Shown piece after piece: positions 4,403 to 18,380 of a stretch of DNA of 20,052 nt (the stretch's first letter is position 1; each line of letters begins with the position of its first letter). The stretch spans positions 1-20,052 of IMG/VR virus record IMGVR_UViG_3300028829_005561; one strand, given 5' to 3'. The position numbers were made by a program, and so were the translations under genes. Below the pieces are notes generated by a model that had not been told where the DNA came from, ran no database searches, and worked only from the letters and a program-made list of their open reading frames with translations. This DNA comes from a virus.

Positions 4403-6016
4403 CTATTTTTCCGTATTTTTTTCTTCGTTTATATCAAAATTATCCTTCTCATAACCCTCTATATCATTGTAAGCGTAAGTCTCAAAATTAGGATTTGTCT
4501 CAACCCAAGTTTTATATTCATATTGGTTATTTTTATTAACAAATACCTCATTAACTCTTAATTTTCTTTCTTCTAATTCCATCAACTGCTGATGTAAGTA
4601 TTCCCTTTGTTCTCTATACTCAGGTTTATAAGCTAAATTATGTAATTCCTCAATATCGTTAACTAAGTCGTATAACTCATATTCTTTTTGATATCTACCT
4701 AATGAATCGAAATAATATGTGTACTTCCAATCATGTGTACGGATTGCCCTTAATCTATTAGTTGCTTTTACAGAAGATGGTAAATTATTCGAACCCGACT
4801 TAGTATCATCAAAAGTAAATAATATAGAATCTTGAACTGATTTACCTTCCTCAATTATTGGTATTAAACTCTCACCTCTTGAGTTACTATCTTTAGGTAC
4901 ACCAACAATCTCAGATATCGTTGGGAATATATCAATAAGTGTCGCTAATTCATCTGACGATTCTTTTTTGTTAAACACAATAGGGTTTGATATCACCATA
5001 GGTATTCTTAACGCTTCTTCATAAGCAACAAAAGCCTTTTGTCTCATACCACCATGTGACATCCCCATTTCTCCGTGGTCTGCCAATCGTATAACTACCG
5101 CGTCATCAGCAAGTCTACTACCTTTGGTATCATCATAAAGTACATCAATAAATTTACCAATTTCACCATCAATCTTAGTTAGTAGGTATGCGTAAAAATT
5201 TAAGTAATTCAATTTCATATCATCGTTTCGTAAGACACCTAATAAACCATCGGCAGCAATGTTTGTTTGTAGTTGAGCCATAGGTTTACCATTTTTAAGT
5301 AACTGTTCCGTAACTGTAGGTGGTAAGTCGGTAATAGTTCTACCAGTATATTCATCGGGAGTATAACCAAATTGTACTGAATTTGGATAACCTAACACAT
5401 CATGAGGATTTACTAAACTTAACACTAAACAATAAGGTTTTCTTGGTTCACCCTTTTCTCTACTGATTCTTACCTGTTCTAAATATTCTATACCTTCTTT
5501 CACATACCTCGCATCAGCATTTGGATAACCCCCACCAAAGTTTTCAGGTTTCGCATCTTCACCCGCATCAGGTCCAACCCAACCTTTAAACCCATAAAGT
5601 GATATTTCTTTAGCTAATGGGTCACCACCATCAGCACCTTTACTTAAATGCCATTTACCTCTGTACTGTACATCGTAACCGATACTATCTAACATCTTAC
5701 CAATGTTATTACTTTTATTGTTTAATTGTATTTCGCCAGGTGAGTATATACCACCTGTTGTTAGTGTTTCCGTACATTGATGTTGTGATGGGTACGTACC
5801 AGTAAATAAAGTGGCTCTACTCGGTGTACACATACAACTATTACAAAAGGCCTTATCAAAGGTGAAACCATTATCTTTTAATTTAGTTAGTGTTGGTAGA
5901 TTTTCTCGTTCCCACCCTTCAGGAAAGTATTGAGTGGCTCTCTCTTGGTCTGTTATTATTATTACAATGTCAGGTTTATCAACAAGTAATTCTTTAAATT
6001 TGTTTTGTTTTTTCAT
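4403..6016 (-). CDS. type I (formylglycine-dependent) sulfatase
   Basis: The 537-residue protein belongs to the S1/alkaline-phosphatase-like sulfatase superfamily, which hydrolyses sulfate esters. The signature CTPSRATLFTG is complete at 63-73; Cys63 would be oxidised to formylglycine by a host maturase. Other expected active-site elements are present: D23-Q24 after a hydrophobic strand, GKWHL with K121 and H123, NPHD near 203-206, ADHGEMGMSHGG with D313 and H314, and K327 followed by YEE. Length is normal. There is no signal peptide, so it is either cytoplasmic or carried in the virion. The nearby glucanase-like lipoprotein suggests a sulfated polysaccharide substrate. Choline sulfatase, arylsulfatase and phosphonate monoester hydrolase are related alternatives. 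A sulfatase is an unusual phage cargo. Confidence 0.92.
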   Translation of the reverse strand: MKKQNKFKELLVDKPDIVIIITDQERATQYFPEGWERENLPTLTKLKDNGFTFDKAFCNSCMCTPSRATLFTGTYPSQHQCTETLTTGGIYSPGEIQLNNKSNNIGKMLDSIGYDVQYRGKWHLSKGADGGDPLAKEISLYGFKGWVGPDAGEDAKPENFGGGYPNADARYVKEGIEYLEQVRISREKGEPRKPYCLVLSLVNPHDVLGYPNSVQFGYTPDEYTGRTITDLPPTVTEQLLKNGKPMAQLQTNIAADGLLGVLRNDDMKLNYLNFYAYLLTKIDGEIGKFIDVLYDDTKGSRLADDAVVIRLADHGEMGMSHGGMRQKAFVAYEEALRIPMVISNPIVFNKKESSDELATLIDIFPTISEIVGVPKDSNSRGESLIPIIEEGKSVQDSILFTFDDTKSGSNNLPSSVKATNRLRAIRTHDWKYTYYFDSLGRYQKEYELYDLVNDIEELHNLAYKPEYREQREYLHQQLMELEERKLRVNEVFVNKNNQYEYKTWVETNPNFETYAYNDIEGYEKDNFDINEEKNTEK

Positions 6017-13193: not shown

Positions 13194-13442
13194 TTAAAAT
13201 TCATAAGAACCTGCGTTTGATTCATCATAATCCACAGTATTTGTTACTCCATTTGGTGGAGTTACACATTCGGGCGTTGAACTAAAAACAAGTGTTTTTA
13301 ACAAGAACAAAACTAAGATAATTCCAACAATCCAACCTCCAATTCTACCTGAAGCTGCGAAGATATTTCCAATACCTTTTAGTAGTTGTGAACCAAACGT
13401 TAAAACGAAACCGATAATGACTAATGTGATAATTCCTTCCAT
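13194..13442 (-). CDS. 82-residue membrane protein
   Basis: The protein has two hydrophobic segments, about residues 2-20 (EGIITLVIIGFVLTFGSQL) and 33-52 (IGGWIVGIILVLFLLKTLVF), joined by a Gly/Ala-rich loop, and a polar tail (STPECVTPPNGVTNTVDYDE). No family is recognised. It has its own promoter (13464-13495) and follows the terminator of the large RNA, so it begins a new transcript. Confidence 0.75.
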   Translation of the reverse strand: MEGIITLVIIGFVLTFGSQLLKGIGNIFAASGRIGGWIVGIILVLFLLKTLVFSSTPECVTPPNGVTNTVDYDESNAGSYEF

Positions 13443-13463
13443 AATTTTATTTTTTTATTTATA

Positions 13464-13495
13464 CAAATATAGTAAATAGTATTCACTTACACAAA
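13464..13495 (-). promoter_or_regulatory. Bacteroidota-type promoter for the 82-residue membrane protein
   Basis: The minus strand has TTTG at 13495-13492, a 20-base spacer and TATATTTG at 13471-13464, matching the TTG/TAnnTTTG form. TATAAATA follows at once (13463-13456). The predicted start is about 15 bases before the ATG at 13442. Confidence 0.65.
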
Positions 13496-13506
13496 TTATT
13501 TAGCAT

Positions 13507-13537
13507 AAAAAAACCTCAGTCGGTTAGAACTGAGGTT
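13507..13537 (-). terminator. intrinsic terminator of the large RNA
   Basis: AACCTCAGT and ACTGAGGTT form a perfect nine-pair stem with an eight-base loop. On the minus strand a run of seven T follows (13513-13507). It marks a clean 3' end for a transcript entering from 14521. Confidence 0.92.
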
Positions 13538-14521
13538 AAGGAAGATATATAATAGAGTATAGAACGCTGAGATTACACGTTTATGGTGACTTGTCTTTAG
13601 TGAGATTACCCTATATCGGTTGCTCATGTATCCACTCTCGTTGCCGAAAGTATCAAGTCAGTGTCGGTTATTTGAGTGAACCACTCTTTTCGTTAACAAC
13701 TACTCAACTACTACTTTACTCTGTCAAACCTTGCGAGTTCACTAAGGGACGGCCATCCCACCAGGTATTTGATAATTGACATCAGGAGACTTGCGGTCTA
13801 CCAATGACTTCGTTAGTCTATTGACTCGAAGTGTTAGACACCTTTCGTTGTCAACGCCCGAAGAACTTTTGCTCTCTTTTAGTTTTAGTAAAAGTAACGA
13901 TGGAAATGAGAAAGATGTGCTTCGGGAGAAGTTTCGTTTCTTTTGAAAACAAAATGCTTCACACCTCTCTGTAAGTCTGTCAACTTACGGTACTTCAGGA
14001 ATACGTTAACTTATCGTATCGGAATTCCTTTGTACTGGTACTCAGCCCTACAACACCTGACAGGGTGTGTCGAACCGTCACCTGTAGCTTTTCCTATTGA
14101 TATCACTATCTCAACTCTGATATTCCACGGACTCAGAGTGGTCTCGTCCCTTTAGCAGTTGCCCTTAGGGTCTTGACCGTAGCCACTTTGTTTAGTTGTC
14201 AGAGTAAACTCTGCGAATATTCACGATGTACTATTCTCGTTTCAATCCCTTTAGTCCCATTGCTGGGGTTATCTAACGACGCTAAACCGCCGTCAAATGT
14301 CATACTTAACCGTTTAAGAAAAAGGGGTTAATCTTTTGTATTCCTTTCACAAACTGTGATGATTAAGGTGACACTTACTAATATTTTCAAAGAACGTCTT
14401 CAGTACTCTTACTGAATTGTTTTACAAAACTACAACAAATTTTTTAATCTGTCAAACTTTTTTTTAAAAACTTTCTGATTTTCTGTTGGGTAAAATATAA
14501 ATACTCCAATAAATCTCAAAA
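13507..14521 (-). ncRNA. candidate large structured non-coding RNA, about 1 kb
   Basis: This is the longest gene-free stretch in the window. It is bracketed by a Bacteroidota-type promoter (14528-14557) and a strong terminator (13507-13537), both on the minus strand, predicting a transcript of about 1,015 bases. Its core is more G+C-rich than its surroundings: three 60-base lines I counted gave 43-48%, against about 35% in a coding line nearby. On the RNA strand it has many local hairpins: TTCAGTA/TACTGAA (14399-14416), CCCA-GCAA-TGGG (14256-14267), CAGAG/CTCTG (near 14200), GTAAGT/ACTTAC (13971-13988), a 6+4-pair hairpin (13807-13832), and ACTTTCG-GCAA-CGAGAGT (13634-13651). Two are capped by GNRA loops. 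The first 120 bases are A/U-rich. No open frame inside looks like a protein. Size and phage setting recall GOLLD and ROOL RNAs, but membership is unproven. Confidence 0.75.
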
Positions 14522-14527
14522 GTTATA

Positions 14528-14557
14528 CAAATATACAAAAAATTTACTCTCAGACAA
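14528..14557 (-). promoter_or_regulatory. Bacteroidota-type promoter of the large RNA
   Basis: The minus strand has TTG at 14557-14555, a 19-base spacer and TATATTTG at 14535-14528. Both boxes and the spacing fit the Bacteroidota housekeeping sigma consensus. The start is expected near 14521. It lies between the stop at 14604 and the RNA. Confidence 0.75.
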
Positions 14558-14603
14558 GCCCTTTAGAGGTTTTTTTATGTTTTGTATTAAAATTATTGGA
14601 TAT

Positions 14604-14828
14604 TTACCCAATAATCACACCATTAGAATCAAAATACTTTTCTAAAGCACTTAACCTATCATCCGCATCTACTAACATTACTAACGCTTCTTCAGCGTTT
14701 TTATAGAAGTCCCCTGTTGAGTGGTCTCCGATTCCTACCGCTTTATTACCAAGTAATTCAAGTGATAATAATGCCTTTGCTTTATCTGCCTGTGCAGATG
14801 TTCTTAACATGTTTACTAATTTGTTCAT
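14604..14828 (-). CDS. hypothetical 74-residue protein
   Basis: A helical protein, MNKLVNMLRTSAQADKAKAL, then ELLGNKAVGIGDHSTGDF, and an acidic helix with LVDADDRLSALEKYF. I do not recognise a named family. Its ATG overlaps the Nudix stop by four bases (14825-14828), so the two are translationally coupled and may share a pathway. Between its stop and the promoter of the large RNA there is no convincing terminator on the minus strand, so read-through into the RNA is possible. Confidence 0.7.
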   Translation of the reverse strand: MNKLVNMLRTSAQADKAKALLSLELLGNKAVGIGDHSTGDFYKNAEEALVMLVDADDRLSALEKYFDSNGVIIG

Positions 14829-15232
14829 TTTAAAATTATTTTTATAAGTTTATTAAATTGTTTTGTCATTGGTTCGGGTAATTCATCTTTACCAAAATAC
14901 CCACATTCCGTGTGTTCATCACCATCATGAGCATTTTCTAAATCAGGAAACATCTCTTCTTCTACATCCATAAGATATGCGTATAACATACCTTTAACTT
15001 TTGTTCCATCTCTATTATATCTTTTTATGACTGCCGCGAAATTAATTTCACCCATTACCGGTAGGTCAGTCTCTTCAATGAATTCTCTAATAGCAGCATC
15101 CTTAATCGGCTCCCCTTCTTCCACACTTCCTGCTGGACATGACCAAAATCCTGGTAATGTCGTTTCTGAATTTCTTTTGCAAAGTAGAACTTTATTGTTA
15201 CACCTTACAATTATACCTGCGTATTTTTTCAT
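14825..15232 (-). CDS. Nudix hydrolase
   Basis: Nudix enzymes hydrolyse nucleoside diphosphates linked to another group, using a metal-binding helix. The 135-residue protein has the box G35-x5-E41-x7-R49-E50-x2-E53-E54 with DL after it, complete except that Asp replaces the usual Gly after the second Glu pair (EETDL). Before the box, KVLLCKRN and PGFWSCPAGSVEEGE are typical of MutT/NTP-pyrophosphatase-like members. The substrate could be an oxidised or modified NTP, or a nucleotide sugar; the sequence does not decide. It is the first gene of a two-gene unit divergent from the DUF192 gene, with 28 bases between the two starts. Confidence 0.93.
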   Translation of the reverse strand: MKKYAGIIVRCNNKVLLCKRNSETTLPGFWSCPAGSVEEGEPIKDAAIREFIEETDLPVMGEINFAAVIKRYNRDGTKVKGMLYAYLMDVEEEMFPDLENAHDGDEHTECGYFGKDELPEPMTKQFNKLIKIILK

Positions 15233-15622: not shown

Positions 15623-15724
15623 TTAACCCTTTTTAAGTTCTGTGGAAGTTTCTATTCCAACAATACCATCAATTAAATTTAATCCCCTATCTTTTTGGAA
15701 CTTCTTAATCGCTTTCTTAGTCCA
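15623..15724 (-). pseudogene. displaced C-terminal tail of the peptidoglycan-binding domain
   Basis: This frame encodes 33 residues beginning WTKKAIKKFQKDRGLNLIDG and ending ELKKG. It continues the peptidoglycan-binding domain that the main frame abandons after DGKFG. The typical family order is DGxFGxxTxxAVxxFQ, so the tail clearly belongs to the upstream gene. A net loss of one base (or four) near 15720-15730 explains the split. The stop at 15623 is close to the terminator at 15581-15602. Confidence 0.8.
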
Positions 15725-17814
15725 AACTTACCATCAACACCAGGTTCACCTAAATCATAACCATTTTTTTTCAAAATGTTTTGTATTTGCTTTACTCCTT
15801 CACCTTTTGAACCAACAGCAATAAGTTCTGAATTATCACCATTACTTATTATGTCATCAATTTTTAGATTACTTTTTTTAATTTTACCTTCGTCTTTACC
15901 TACCGGACCACTACTATTTGTTTTACCTCCGTCTTTGTTTGAAACATGTAGATGATTATAATGATTACCTCCAATATCAGTTTGCCATAAAACCGCCTTT
16001 TTATGACCACGTTCACCGTTCCAATTATAACCTAATTCAACTAAAGCGTCTTTAAGTCTATTTCCTGCAATTCTAAAATTTTCACTACCGTTAGTAGAGT
16101 TAGATGCATTACCCGAACCTCTTAAACGTTTCTGTTTTGGGTCTTTTAAATCTTGTAATCTAGATATATCAACCGCATCATGAGTACTATGTCTACTAAC
16201 ATTACCTGACTTAGTTTTACTACTATGTCCAGTATGTGCCCAATTAATCTGAACTTTTACTTTAGCTTTTTCTGCTGCAGATTGGATATCATTTAACAAT
16301 TCTTTATTAACCGTGTCTTTTCTAGCTCTTCTATGTACATCAATATTATCTGACTCATAATCACCAATAGTAACATCTATTTCTTTTATCATTCCTTCAT
16401 TTACACCTTTGGATTCATTAATTTTTTCTTTAAGTTTTCTTACAAATTCTTTTTGAATCATTTTAACAAACTTAACATATGGTGAATCACCTTTATCTTT
16501 ATTGTATTTATATTTACCTTCAGGTTTTCTCTTACCTCTTCCAAAGTAATTTAAAGCAGATATATTTGTAATACATTTGTGTCCACCTGAGTTAGCTTGA
16601 ATCATTTCCCACGCTGGAACACCTAATTTATCTAATATCGCCCACTCATCTTCAGTTAATTTAGTTGATGGTTTGTCCATTATATCTTTTAATTTTTCCA
16701 TGTAGTCATCACCACCACTCATCGAACGAACCTTATCACCATAAAAGGCTTCTAAATCCGCATTAGTAAAACCAACTGACTCATCACCAAATTGTTTATT
16801 ACCCTCTGATATCCACTTGATTGTAGATAAAGGAATTATCTTTTCTCTTAATTGACTCTCCCATTTACTTAATACTTCTTGAGCTATATCACCTAAGTTA
16901 ACACCTTTCAATTCTCTCTCACCTTTGAATGGGTTACATGAAGCTTGTACTAACCCCATTGGCCAAGCGATTACTATAAAGTCAGCCTCAGGATTATTTT
17001 TGAATGGAGTGTAACGGTCATAAGAACCTGGTTTGAACATTGAACCTCCACCGTATTGTACTATAATTCCGTCATCAACATAAACCTTATCACTATCTTT
17101 TTGTTTCTGTACATAATCTTTTTGATTCAACGCCATTTCTTCAGGTAACGCGTACCCCTTTTCAGCGGCTAATCTATTAATGTTTTGAAATATGTTTAAT
17201 AGTGATGGTTGAGATGTCATTACTAAGTCTTCCATAAAACCTGGTTTATTCTTATAAGCTAACATAAGTTTGTTAGTAGCTAAACCTAAGGCCATTTTAT
17301 TTTTCTGTAATGACTTATCTTTTTGTAGTTTAAATACAAAATTCATTATATCTTGTGGTTCTAACCCATACTTAGCAAAATCTGCAGAATCAACTGTAGA
17401 TATTAATCTAATATCATCAGCAGTAAAGATATCACTTGGTGACATTATTTGGGATAAGGTCTCAACATTTGAACGTGATGACCTGAATGATGTTGATGTA
17501 TCACCTTCCACACCTGTTTGACTATCATGATGGTCTGTATGTACAACAAACATCGGCTTTCCATGTGCGAAATCAACTAAAACCGGCATCGTATCACCTT
17601 TAGCGTCTTGTTTCTTTACCGCAAATTCCTTATCACCGTATTGTATTATTTCAGAATCAACAACTTTGATTCCATTATTCTCTAAATAATTTTTCATAGC
17701 TAAGGCAGTCGTAACACCGTCTAAATCTTGATGAAAATATATTTTAGCTTTCTGATATCTCTTAGATAAATCTTTGATATTTCTTAATCCTGATTCTTTA
17801 ATTAATTTTTTCAT
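15679..17814 (-). CDS. DHH phosphoesterase fused to M15-like peptidase and peptidoglycan-binding domain
   Basis: The frame encodes 711 residues. Residues 1-13 (MKKLIKESGLRNI) resemble a tag shared with other proteins here. Residues 20-460 form a DHH-family phosphoesterase: D30-x-D32 (FHQDLDG), D81, T-D-H-H at 93-96, and a DHHA1-like SGGHK at 409-413; such enzymes cleave oligonucleotides, single-stranded DNA or cyclic dinucleotides. Residues about 480-625 look like an M15-type peptidoglycan peptidase, with zinc ligands H542 and D549 in SRHSTHDAVDIS and H621/H623 in NHLHVS. Residues 664-698 start a peptidoglycan-binding domain (GSKGEGVKQIQ, GVDGKFG) cut short by a frameshift. The start overlaps the lysozyme stop by four bases, so both wall-acting enzymes are coexpressed. 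A merger of two genes is possible. Confidence 0.88.
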   Translation of the reverse strand: MKKLIKESGLRNIKDLSKRYQKAKIYFHQDLDGVTTALAMKNYLENNGIKVVDSEIIQYGDKEFAVKKQDAKGDTMPVLVDFAHGKPMFVVHTDHHDSQTGVEGDTSTSFRSSRSNVETLSQIMSPSDIFTADDIRLISTVDSADFAKYGLEPQDIMNFVFKLQKDKSLQKNKMALGLATNKLMLAYKNKPGFMEDLVMTSQPSLLNIFQNINRLAAEKGYALPEEMALNQKDYVQKQKDSDKVYVDDGIIVQYGGGSMFKPGSYDRYTPFKNNPEADFIVIAWPMGLVQASCNPFKGERELKGVNLGDIAQEVLSKWESQLREKIIPLSTIKWISEGNKQFGDESVGFTNADLEAFYGDKVRSMSGGDDYMEKLKDIMDKPSTKLTEDEWAILDKLGVPAWEMIQANSGGHKCITNISALNYFGRGKRKPEGKYKYNKDKGDSPYVKFVKMIQKEFVRKLKEKINESKGVNEGMIKEIDVTIGDYESDNIDVHRRARKDTVNKELLNDIQSAAEKAKVKVQINWAHTGHSSKTKSGNVSRHSTHDAVDISRLQDLKDPKQKRLRGSGNASNSTNGSENFRIAGNRLKDALVELGYNWNGERGHKKAVLWQTDIGGNHYNHLHVSNKDGGKTNSSGPVGKDEGKIKKSNLKIDDIISNGDNSELIAVGSKGEGVKQIQNILKKNGYDLGEPGVDGKFGLRKRLRSSKKIGD

Positions 17815-18380
17815 GATATAAACATATTTTTTTCTTTTGTTCTTCTATTTTTAAGACCGTCATTCGAGGACTTATATGATAAAATACTTTCTGCCGCTTT
17901 TTTATTTTGACCAGATTTAACATATTGTATGAATCTTGACATTCTAACTGAATCACATCCAGTATTAAAAACTAATGATATTAACGAATCAAATTGTCCT
18001 TGAGTTAACATATACGTTTTTAATCCTTTATCTTTCCATTCCCCTAAAAATCTTCTAACACAGTCGGCAGCCTCCGAAGCATCTTTATAAAGTAACTCTA
18101 ACGCAGTTTTTTTATCTATCACTAAACCACGTTTTACATCACTACCAGTGTGTCCATAACCGATAGTTAAAACTCCACTTGTGTCTTTATAAGCTTTTAA
18201 TACTGGCTCCTTTATGTTACCAATTGGTTTTTTGGGGTCACCTTCTTCAAATTTAATATGGTCCCAAAAGTTTTGACTGGCCTTCATTTTAGTACCATCT
18301 TTTTTATCAACTTCATTCTCAATTAAATACATTTTACGTATTTGAGATTCTTCTGACTCATTTATAAATAACTTTGACAT
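17811..18380 (-). CDS. T4-type lysozyme / endolysin (GH24)
   Basis: GH24 lysozymes cut the glycan strands of peptidoglycan. The 189-residue protein has a 35-residue N-terminal extension (MSKLFINESEESQIRKMYLIENE) and then the full domain: the catalytic Glu in KFEEGD (E46 most likely), Y64-K-D66, TIGYGHT (72-78) with Thr78, LTQGQFDSLISLVFNTG (125-141) and GLKNRRTKEKNMF. There is no signal peptide or SAR anchor, so release would need a holin, or the enzyme is delivered with the virion. The N-terminal extension resembles those of the DHH/M15 and 99-residue proteins and contains L-I-E, a possible prohead-protease site. It is the first gene of its transcript; an ATATTTAT element lies 14 bases before the ATG. 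Confidence 0.95.
   Translation of the reverse strand: MSKLFINESEESQIRKMYLIENEVDKKDGTKMKASQNFWDHIKFEEGDPKKPIGNIKEPVLKAYKDTSGVLTIGYGHTGSDVKRGLVIDKKTALELLYKDASEAADCVRRFLGEWKDKGLKTYMLTQGQFDSLISLVFNTGCDSVRMSRFIQYVKSGQNKKAAESILSYKSSNDGLKNRRTKEKNMFIS

Follow-up and report, generated by a model that had tools for sequence, protein, structure and literature searches.

The 20,052-base IMG/VR virus record analysed here (the window) almost certainly encodes, on its minus strand, a GOLLD RNA, and the gene carries a leader resembling those of ribosomal RNA operons; we consider it likely that this gene is an autonomous unit transcribed like rRNA through antitermination by host NusB and S10. GOLLD cages were solved in 2025, and a conserved leader with a host-type boxA would offer a testable mechanism for making this long untranslated RNA. 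The identification of the RNA is in itself ordinary, adding another member to a known family.

A comparison of the minus-strand interval with Rfam, proposed by an earlier sequence-only reading of this DNA, placed GOLLD (RF02032) at 291.5 bits, nearly double the gathering cut-off of 150 bits, with the model covered entirely (positions 1–416 of 416). That reading had suggested a member of GOLLD or ROOL, a relative of these or a new class, and the match decides for GOLLD; membership of ROOL (RF03087) was rejected, Rfam giving no such match in 13300–14900 at E up to 1. A match to 'Betaproteobacteria toxic sRNA' (23.5 bits against a cut-off of 50) was discarded as just the terminator hairpin. The hairpins with GCAA loops that had been picked out from the letters can be seen in the Rfam alignment, and the interval had appeared to exceed both classes in length because it includes the promoters and leader: counted from 14385, just past the boxA-like core, as far as 13564, where the Rfam match stops, the GOLLD part measures 822 nt. 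Within the 3′ domain, the hairpin that we equate with loop L21a has a central GC in 35 of the 35 sequences aligned below and a palindromic tetramer in 30 (GGCC in 28, AGCT in 1 and TGCA in 1), as would be expected of the self-kissing bridge B8 described for GOLLD (PMC12286853, excerpt).

Table 1. Features of the GOLLD gene in the window, in order of transcription
Feature	Position	Strand	Basis or remark
Promoter P1, TTG-N19-TATATTTG	14528–14557	minus	Sequence; matched in 20/21 non-redundant relatives
Promoter P2, TTTG-N20-TAGTTTTG	14425–14456	minus	Sequence and conservation
Leader hairpin, TTCAGTA-AGAG-TACTGAA	14399–14416	minus	Between P2 and the boxA-like element
boxA-like element, core GTTCTTTGAA at 14395–14386	14381–14398	minus	18.9 bits with the 16S-leader matrix
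GOLLD 5′ domain core	13966–14290	minus	16 predicted helices, 84 pairs; putative cage cap by analogy with env-38
GOLLD 3′ domain	13564–13969	minus	Rfam RF02032, 291.5 bits, E 8.2e-83
Variable linker (approximate)	13866–13907	minus	42 nt, from the Rfam alignment; ends approximate; no tRNA inside
Hairpin GGGA-TGGCCG-TCCC	13746–13759	minus	Equated by position alone with loop L21a (bridge B8)
Intrinsic terminator	13505–13537	minus	Scan: 10 pairs, then T

Relatives were collected with a pattern for the 3′ end, which matched 35 viral stretches, and a second pattern, which matched 98. The covariance model put GOLLD above cut-off in 48 of the 50 viral records tested, and the other two were dropped, as were the 19 bacterial genome contigs matched by the 3′ motif (0/19 above cut-off); stricter filters found no GOLLD in 299 Bacilli genomes. 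Clustering at 97% and removal of false clusters and a truncated one left 34 clusters, which with the window make a set of 35 sequences (mean pairwise identity 0.71); a nearer set holds 21 non-redundant sequences, 64–98% identical to the window. Named phages contained no near DNA relative at 1e-5. At E up to 10 the same search returned 19 records, and four of the five examined are GOLLDs, from Streptococcus phage LYGO9, Acinetobacter phages YMC13/03/R2096 and 313, and Mycobacterium phage SlimJimmy; a Staphylococcus phage record proved not to be GOLLD. In LYGO9 (L222), an annotated hypothetical protein (AFQ95913.1, 2092–2304) overlaps the GOLLD 3′ domain at 2158–2533 and is probably a spurious gene call. 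One record, IMGVR_UViG_3300001352_001775 (L023/L102), is a mosaic whose GOLLD 5′ half is identical to that of L103 and whose 3′ half is identical to the window, with a 5′-domain stretch identical to both; it could reflect domain-swapping recombination or an assembly chimera, a window-like contig (L038) coming from the same sample.

The model in Rfam, as we understand it, describes the 3′ domain alone. Upstream of it, RNAalifold (run on 13966–14290) predicted a 5′ domain whose 84 pairs are 98.4% paired across the 35 sequences, with changes on both sides at 46 pairs, when scored on alignment A1, which holds the same sequences that yielded the structure and so favours it. None of 500 shuffles reached any of the five values recorded for this pairing, and sliding the partners by one column lowered it to 42.8%. 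We also ran a covariation test of our own, modelled on R-scape (G-test with APC, 40 alignments simulated along a FastTree tree, with E-values below 0.025 beyond its resolution). Given no structure, it returned 19 column pairs at E 0.05, 18 of them Watson-Crick or GU, and 10 of the 19 lie in the 5′ domain, outside the Rfam model. Gathering homologues and looking for covariation, as had been proposed, thus uncovered compensatory changes in the hairpins, so that the RNA reading stands where homologues lacking such changes had been named as grounds for giving it up. The analysis also contributes a set of 35 distinct full-length GOLLD sequences with a covariation-supported 5′ domain that lies beyond Rfam's model.

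The gene has its own transcription signals, which draw their interest from conservation. By themselves, promoter-like matches in the window lie near chance (11 found versus 7.3 ± 2.9 in shuffles), and the terminator scan is unremarkable (2 versus 1.1 ± 1.2). The minus-strand promoter singled out by the sequence-only reading is P1, which, like P2, we take to be of Bacteroidota type. The terminator noted there on the same strand (13537–13512 in the scan) is likewise shared by 20 of 21 relatives, with compensating stem changes, for instance from AACCTCAG/CTGAGGTT to GACCTCGG/CCGAGGTT; its nine pairs become ten in our scan. Two further signals had been missed, P2 and the boxA-like element. At P2, TAnnTTTG stands at the same place in 33 of the 35 sequences and TTGAC or TTGTC lies upstream in 26. 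The leader hairpin that follows, present in many relatives and absent from others, occupies the position of a boxB. A transcript started at P1 would measure 1,015 nt and one started at P2 912 nt.

After the promoters, within an otherwise poorly conserved stretch, comes GTTCTT(TGAA), whose first six bases, GTTCTT, are invariant in all 35 sequences; the core reads GTTCTTTG in 26, GTTCTTTA in 4, GTTCTTAC in 4 and GTTCTTTT in 1. It resembles boxA, for which the gamma-proteobacterial consensus is GYTCTTTAANA (PMC5725501, excerpt); we infer the boxA of Bacteroidota itself from its likeness to the textbook boxA. A 16S start pattern was found in 27 of 148 Bacteroidota genomes, from which 30 16S loci were taken, 26 with leaders long enough to use; the 18 best leader sites gave a matrix of 18 columns that includes no GOLLD sequence. 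With this matrix, the boxA-like element is the top site on either strand of the window, the runner-up scoring 11.3 bits. The matrix was run on up to 1.4 kb ahead of the 3′ core in 36 clusters, of which L121 was left out as not GOLLD. In 28 of the remaining 35 clusters the best site falls at −740 to −600, where about one in ten would be expected by chance, and 20 of these 28 sites score higher than the 99th percentile of dinucleotide shuffles. In the other 7 clusters the best site lies elsewhere, and alignment shows the GTTCTT core in place. The element is not universal in GOLLD: no boxA was found before GOLLD in the huge phage LR756502 (best 2.3 bits), the GOLLDs of the Streptococcus phage and the two Acinetobacter phages gave no good match to a boxA consensus, and none of the six sites in each of two contigs (G040 and G041) lies at GOLLD, a relative's element scoring 11.8, just below the threshold of 12 bits used in whole-contig scans. 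From its sequence, we regard the element as probably a working antitermination signal. We found no published link between boxA and GOLLD in the open-licence literature, subscription papers and preprints falling mostly outside that search.

Scans of whole contigs placed similar sites before other stable RNAs. A 198,834-base contig from a relative has 10 sites of at least 12 bits, three of which lie directly before the tmRNA gene (18 nt from it), the tRNA array (52 nt before its first tRNA) and GOLLD. The other 7 do not directly precede a stable-RNA gene; one is just behind a tRNA-Met within the array, and two are inside ORFs. The chance of three sites falling in the 150-nt windows before these three RNA units is P = 1.7e-7; because GOLLD had suggested the idea, we repeated the test with the tmRNA and tRNA array only, giving P = 2e-5. 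The tmRNA of this phage (75049–75438, Rfam 84.7 bits; contig G002, L230–L239) was found by Rfam and missed by ARAGORN. In the huge phage LR745206 (634,780 bases), 2 of 20 sites precede such genes: one lies 33 nt upstream of a tRNA-like gene and the other immediately upstream of GOLLD (P = 1.1e-5). Four other tRNA clusters there have no upstream site of at least 12 bits. Where a tRNA-Met lies upstream of GOLLD (clusters L113 and L150/L151), a GTTCTTTAAAATA of its own precedes it by about 20 nt. Among host Bacteroidota tmRNA loci (L290–L319), 5 of 30 have GTTCTTT at −18/−19, and boxA may serve host tmRNA too.

A second host phylum gives a comparable picture. Mycobacteriales 16S leaders carry a TGTTGTTTGAGAACTCAATAGTGT-like boxA, from which 27 sites were made into a matrix and run on 11 mycobacteriophage loci (9 with GOLLD), several of them close relatives and so not 11 independent cases. 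The best site lies between tRNA-Trp and tmRNA in 9 of the 11 loci; in the other two it is behind tRNA-Trp, 400 nt from tmRNA, and, in MaryV, inside tRNA-Trp. Six of the 11 sites are above the 99th percentile of base-shuffled loci, and in SlimJimmy the unit runs via tRNA-Asn to GOLLD about 1.2 kb downstream. One of two ROOL loci (L221, minus strand) has TGCCCTTTGAAAACAGG, which agrees with the boxA consensus at 11 of 12 positions, straddling the 5′ end of the RNA behind a TATAAT; the other (L220) has no boxA. We give about an even chance to the broader proposal that rRNA boxA antitermination has been co-opted for GOLLD, tmRNA and tRNA arrays by phages whose hosts belong to two phyla or more. 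If so, boxA would mark a phage 'stable-RNA regulon', with GOLLD made by the transcription machinery that builds ribosomes. The conserved leader also offers a way of recognising phage stable-RNA genes from sequence. None of the titles found on boxA and tmRNA in the open-licence literature concerns phage tmRNA leaders.

For the window, the order of events would be as follows. Transcription would start at P1, P2 or both and pass through the leader, with its hairpin and boxA-like element, into the roughly 820 nt of GOLLD (5′ domain, linker and 3′ domain) before stopping at the intrinsic terminator. The host NusB–S10 (NusE) pair would bind boxA in the nascent leader and convert RNA polymerase into an rRNA-type antitermination complex, so that the long untranslated RNA could be completed, escaping early termination by Rho, and the finished GOLLD would fold and assemble as a 14-mer cage. 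NusB is present in all 21 sampled Bacteroidota genomes, the window's own host being presumed to belong to this phylum, and absent from the four phage records examined, so host NusB would be used. The same kind of signal has a measurable effect elsewhere: in Legionella, an engineered CRISPR array yielded about 10 times as much precursor RNA when preceded by boxA (PMC7862264, excerpt). GOLLD identity, a structured 5′ domain, the conserved promoters, boxA-like element and terminator and their likeness to host rRNA leaders are the parts of this account legible in the DNA, whereas Nus-factor binding, Rho resistance, leader trimming and cage assembly of the window's GOLLD are what we infer.

The conserved GTTCTTTGAA might instead be a 5′ structural element of the GOLLD fold with no part in antitermination, which we think unlikely. 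Such a role would suit its six invariant bases and its place at the very 5′ end of the structured RNA, and the loop of the first 3′-domain hairpin (TTCAAAAG in the window) is a possible, though imperfect, pairing partner. However, the 19 significant covarying pairs all lie outside GTTCTTTGAA, and the candidate loop reads TTCAAAAG in just 6 of 35 sequences, being mostly TCCAAAAG/TCTCAAAAG or CCAAAG, while boxA shows no matching change; lacking covariation, this pairing was rejected. The element is also found in related phages ahead of tmRNA, a tRNA array and tRNA-Met, and in hosts ahead of 16S rRNA, RNAs that do not have the GOLLD fold; env-38, with 833 residues, would start after the element if the domains are equally long.

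Considerably less probable still is that the leader element serves to titrate NusB and S10 away from host rRNA operons, GOLLD expression thereby lowering host ribosome synthesis. Host rRNA leaders do have the same element, ribosomes are reported to pull down GOLLD, and phage GOLLD rises during lysis (PMC12286853, excerpt), but each transcript offers a single site, and a decoy would have no need of a promoter-proximal position.

The earlier description of more than 1 kb with no credible gene holds for the gap between the flanking ORFs at 13194–13442 and 14604–14828, both on the minus strand, as does that of a G+C-richer core (0.40–0.43 in the 500-base windows starting at 13501 and 13751, 0.26–0.39 in other windows). 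The only ORFs of at least 50 aa listed inside the interval are four on the plus strand, started by TTG and 52–70 aa long, which match nothing in Pfam at E 0.01, show no codon-position signal and are broken by in-frame stops in 27–34 and by frame-shifting indels in 25–34 of the 35 sequences. Counted over a shared column, ORFs of at least 50 aa occur on the antisense strand in as many as 77% of the 35 sequences and on the sense strand in 40%; we attribute the antisense overlap to conservation of the RNA and do not take it for a gene, because there is no codon signal and there are stops and frame-shifting indels. No frame is conserved as a protein, the other outcome that would have counted against an RNA gene. 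A degenerate coding region or chance hairpins with no functional RNA, for which this antisense overlap is the one favourable sign, is refuted by the covariation and has next to no probability in view of the Rfam score, the indels and stops and the want of a protein family match.

The window probably carries the GOLLD gene of an uncultured marine phage of Bacteroidota, a host proposed because of the affinity of the thymidylate synthase, the promoter type and the likeness of the boxA. The thymidylate synthase is nearest to those of Flavobacterium phages (59%); one such phage with a close thymidylate synthase was checked and has no GOLLD. For a 711-aa protein (15679–17814, minus), relatives were confirmed in 358 viral-contig stretches, and 80 loci were retained. 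Two uncultured huge phages also encode a relative, and both have GOLLD: in one, of 634,780 bases, it is 46% identical and in the other, of 642,428 bases, 41%, in each case along two thirds of the query; two 735-kb records match the protein weakly. This protein shows weak matches, below cut-off, to DHH (N-terminal) and a peptidoglycan-binding domain (C-terminal), and its gene adjoins an endolysin gene (17811–18380) and in many relatives is kept beside GOLLD. The phage also bears a sulfatase (4403–6016, minus; Pfam Sulfatase 132.2 bits, SGSH_C 72.2 bits), an unusual cargo that, from its domains, may modify sulfated polysaccharides.

Among known systems, CRISPR arrays are reported to have a natural boxA ahead of them (Stringer et al. 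2020, as cited in PMC7862264, excerpt). As here, it serves a long non-coding transcript besides rRNA, with the difference that these are bacterial CRISPR arrays and not a phage structural RNA. Phage ICP1 makes an abundant non-coding transcript of about 800 nt (PMC7567579, excerpt), and it shares with the window an ORF-less space of about 1 kb and the absence of nearby tRNAs; its host is Vibrio, and the excerpted text of PMC7567579 does not assign the RNA to GOLLD. The same text describes the GOLLD of a Lactobacillus brevis prophage as dispensable for phage production.

The closest structural counterpart is env-38, a solved GOLLD that forms a homo-14-mer cage of 833-residue chains with the linker disordered inside (PMC12286853, excerpt). 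As far as that excerpt allows comparison, both RNAs are phage-encoded and of similar length (about 820 nt in the window), and both combine the whole 3′-domain model with a separate covarying 5′ domain, a linker and a self-complementary loop, the 5′ domains being likened by analogy and not letter by letter. GOLLD usually, though not by definition, lies near tRNA genes; ARAGORN found no tRNA in the 20,052 bases, and among 39 relative loci scanned only 3 have one, a tRNA-Met, and 36 have none. Unlike env-38, the window's GOLLD does not lie within a tRNA array and has its own tandem promoters, boxA-like element and terminator. Compared with rRNA operon leaders, the window's leader drives a phage RNA that meets an intrinsic terminator after about 0.9–1.0 kb, the hairpin is missing in part of the GOLLD relatives, and the likeness in antitermination is one of sequence; what the two have in common is the succession of promoter, hairpin and boxA-like element of the host phylum ahead of a long, untranslated, structured RNA.
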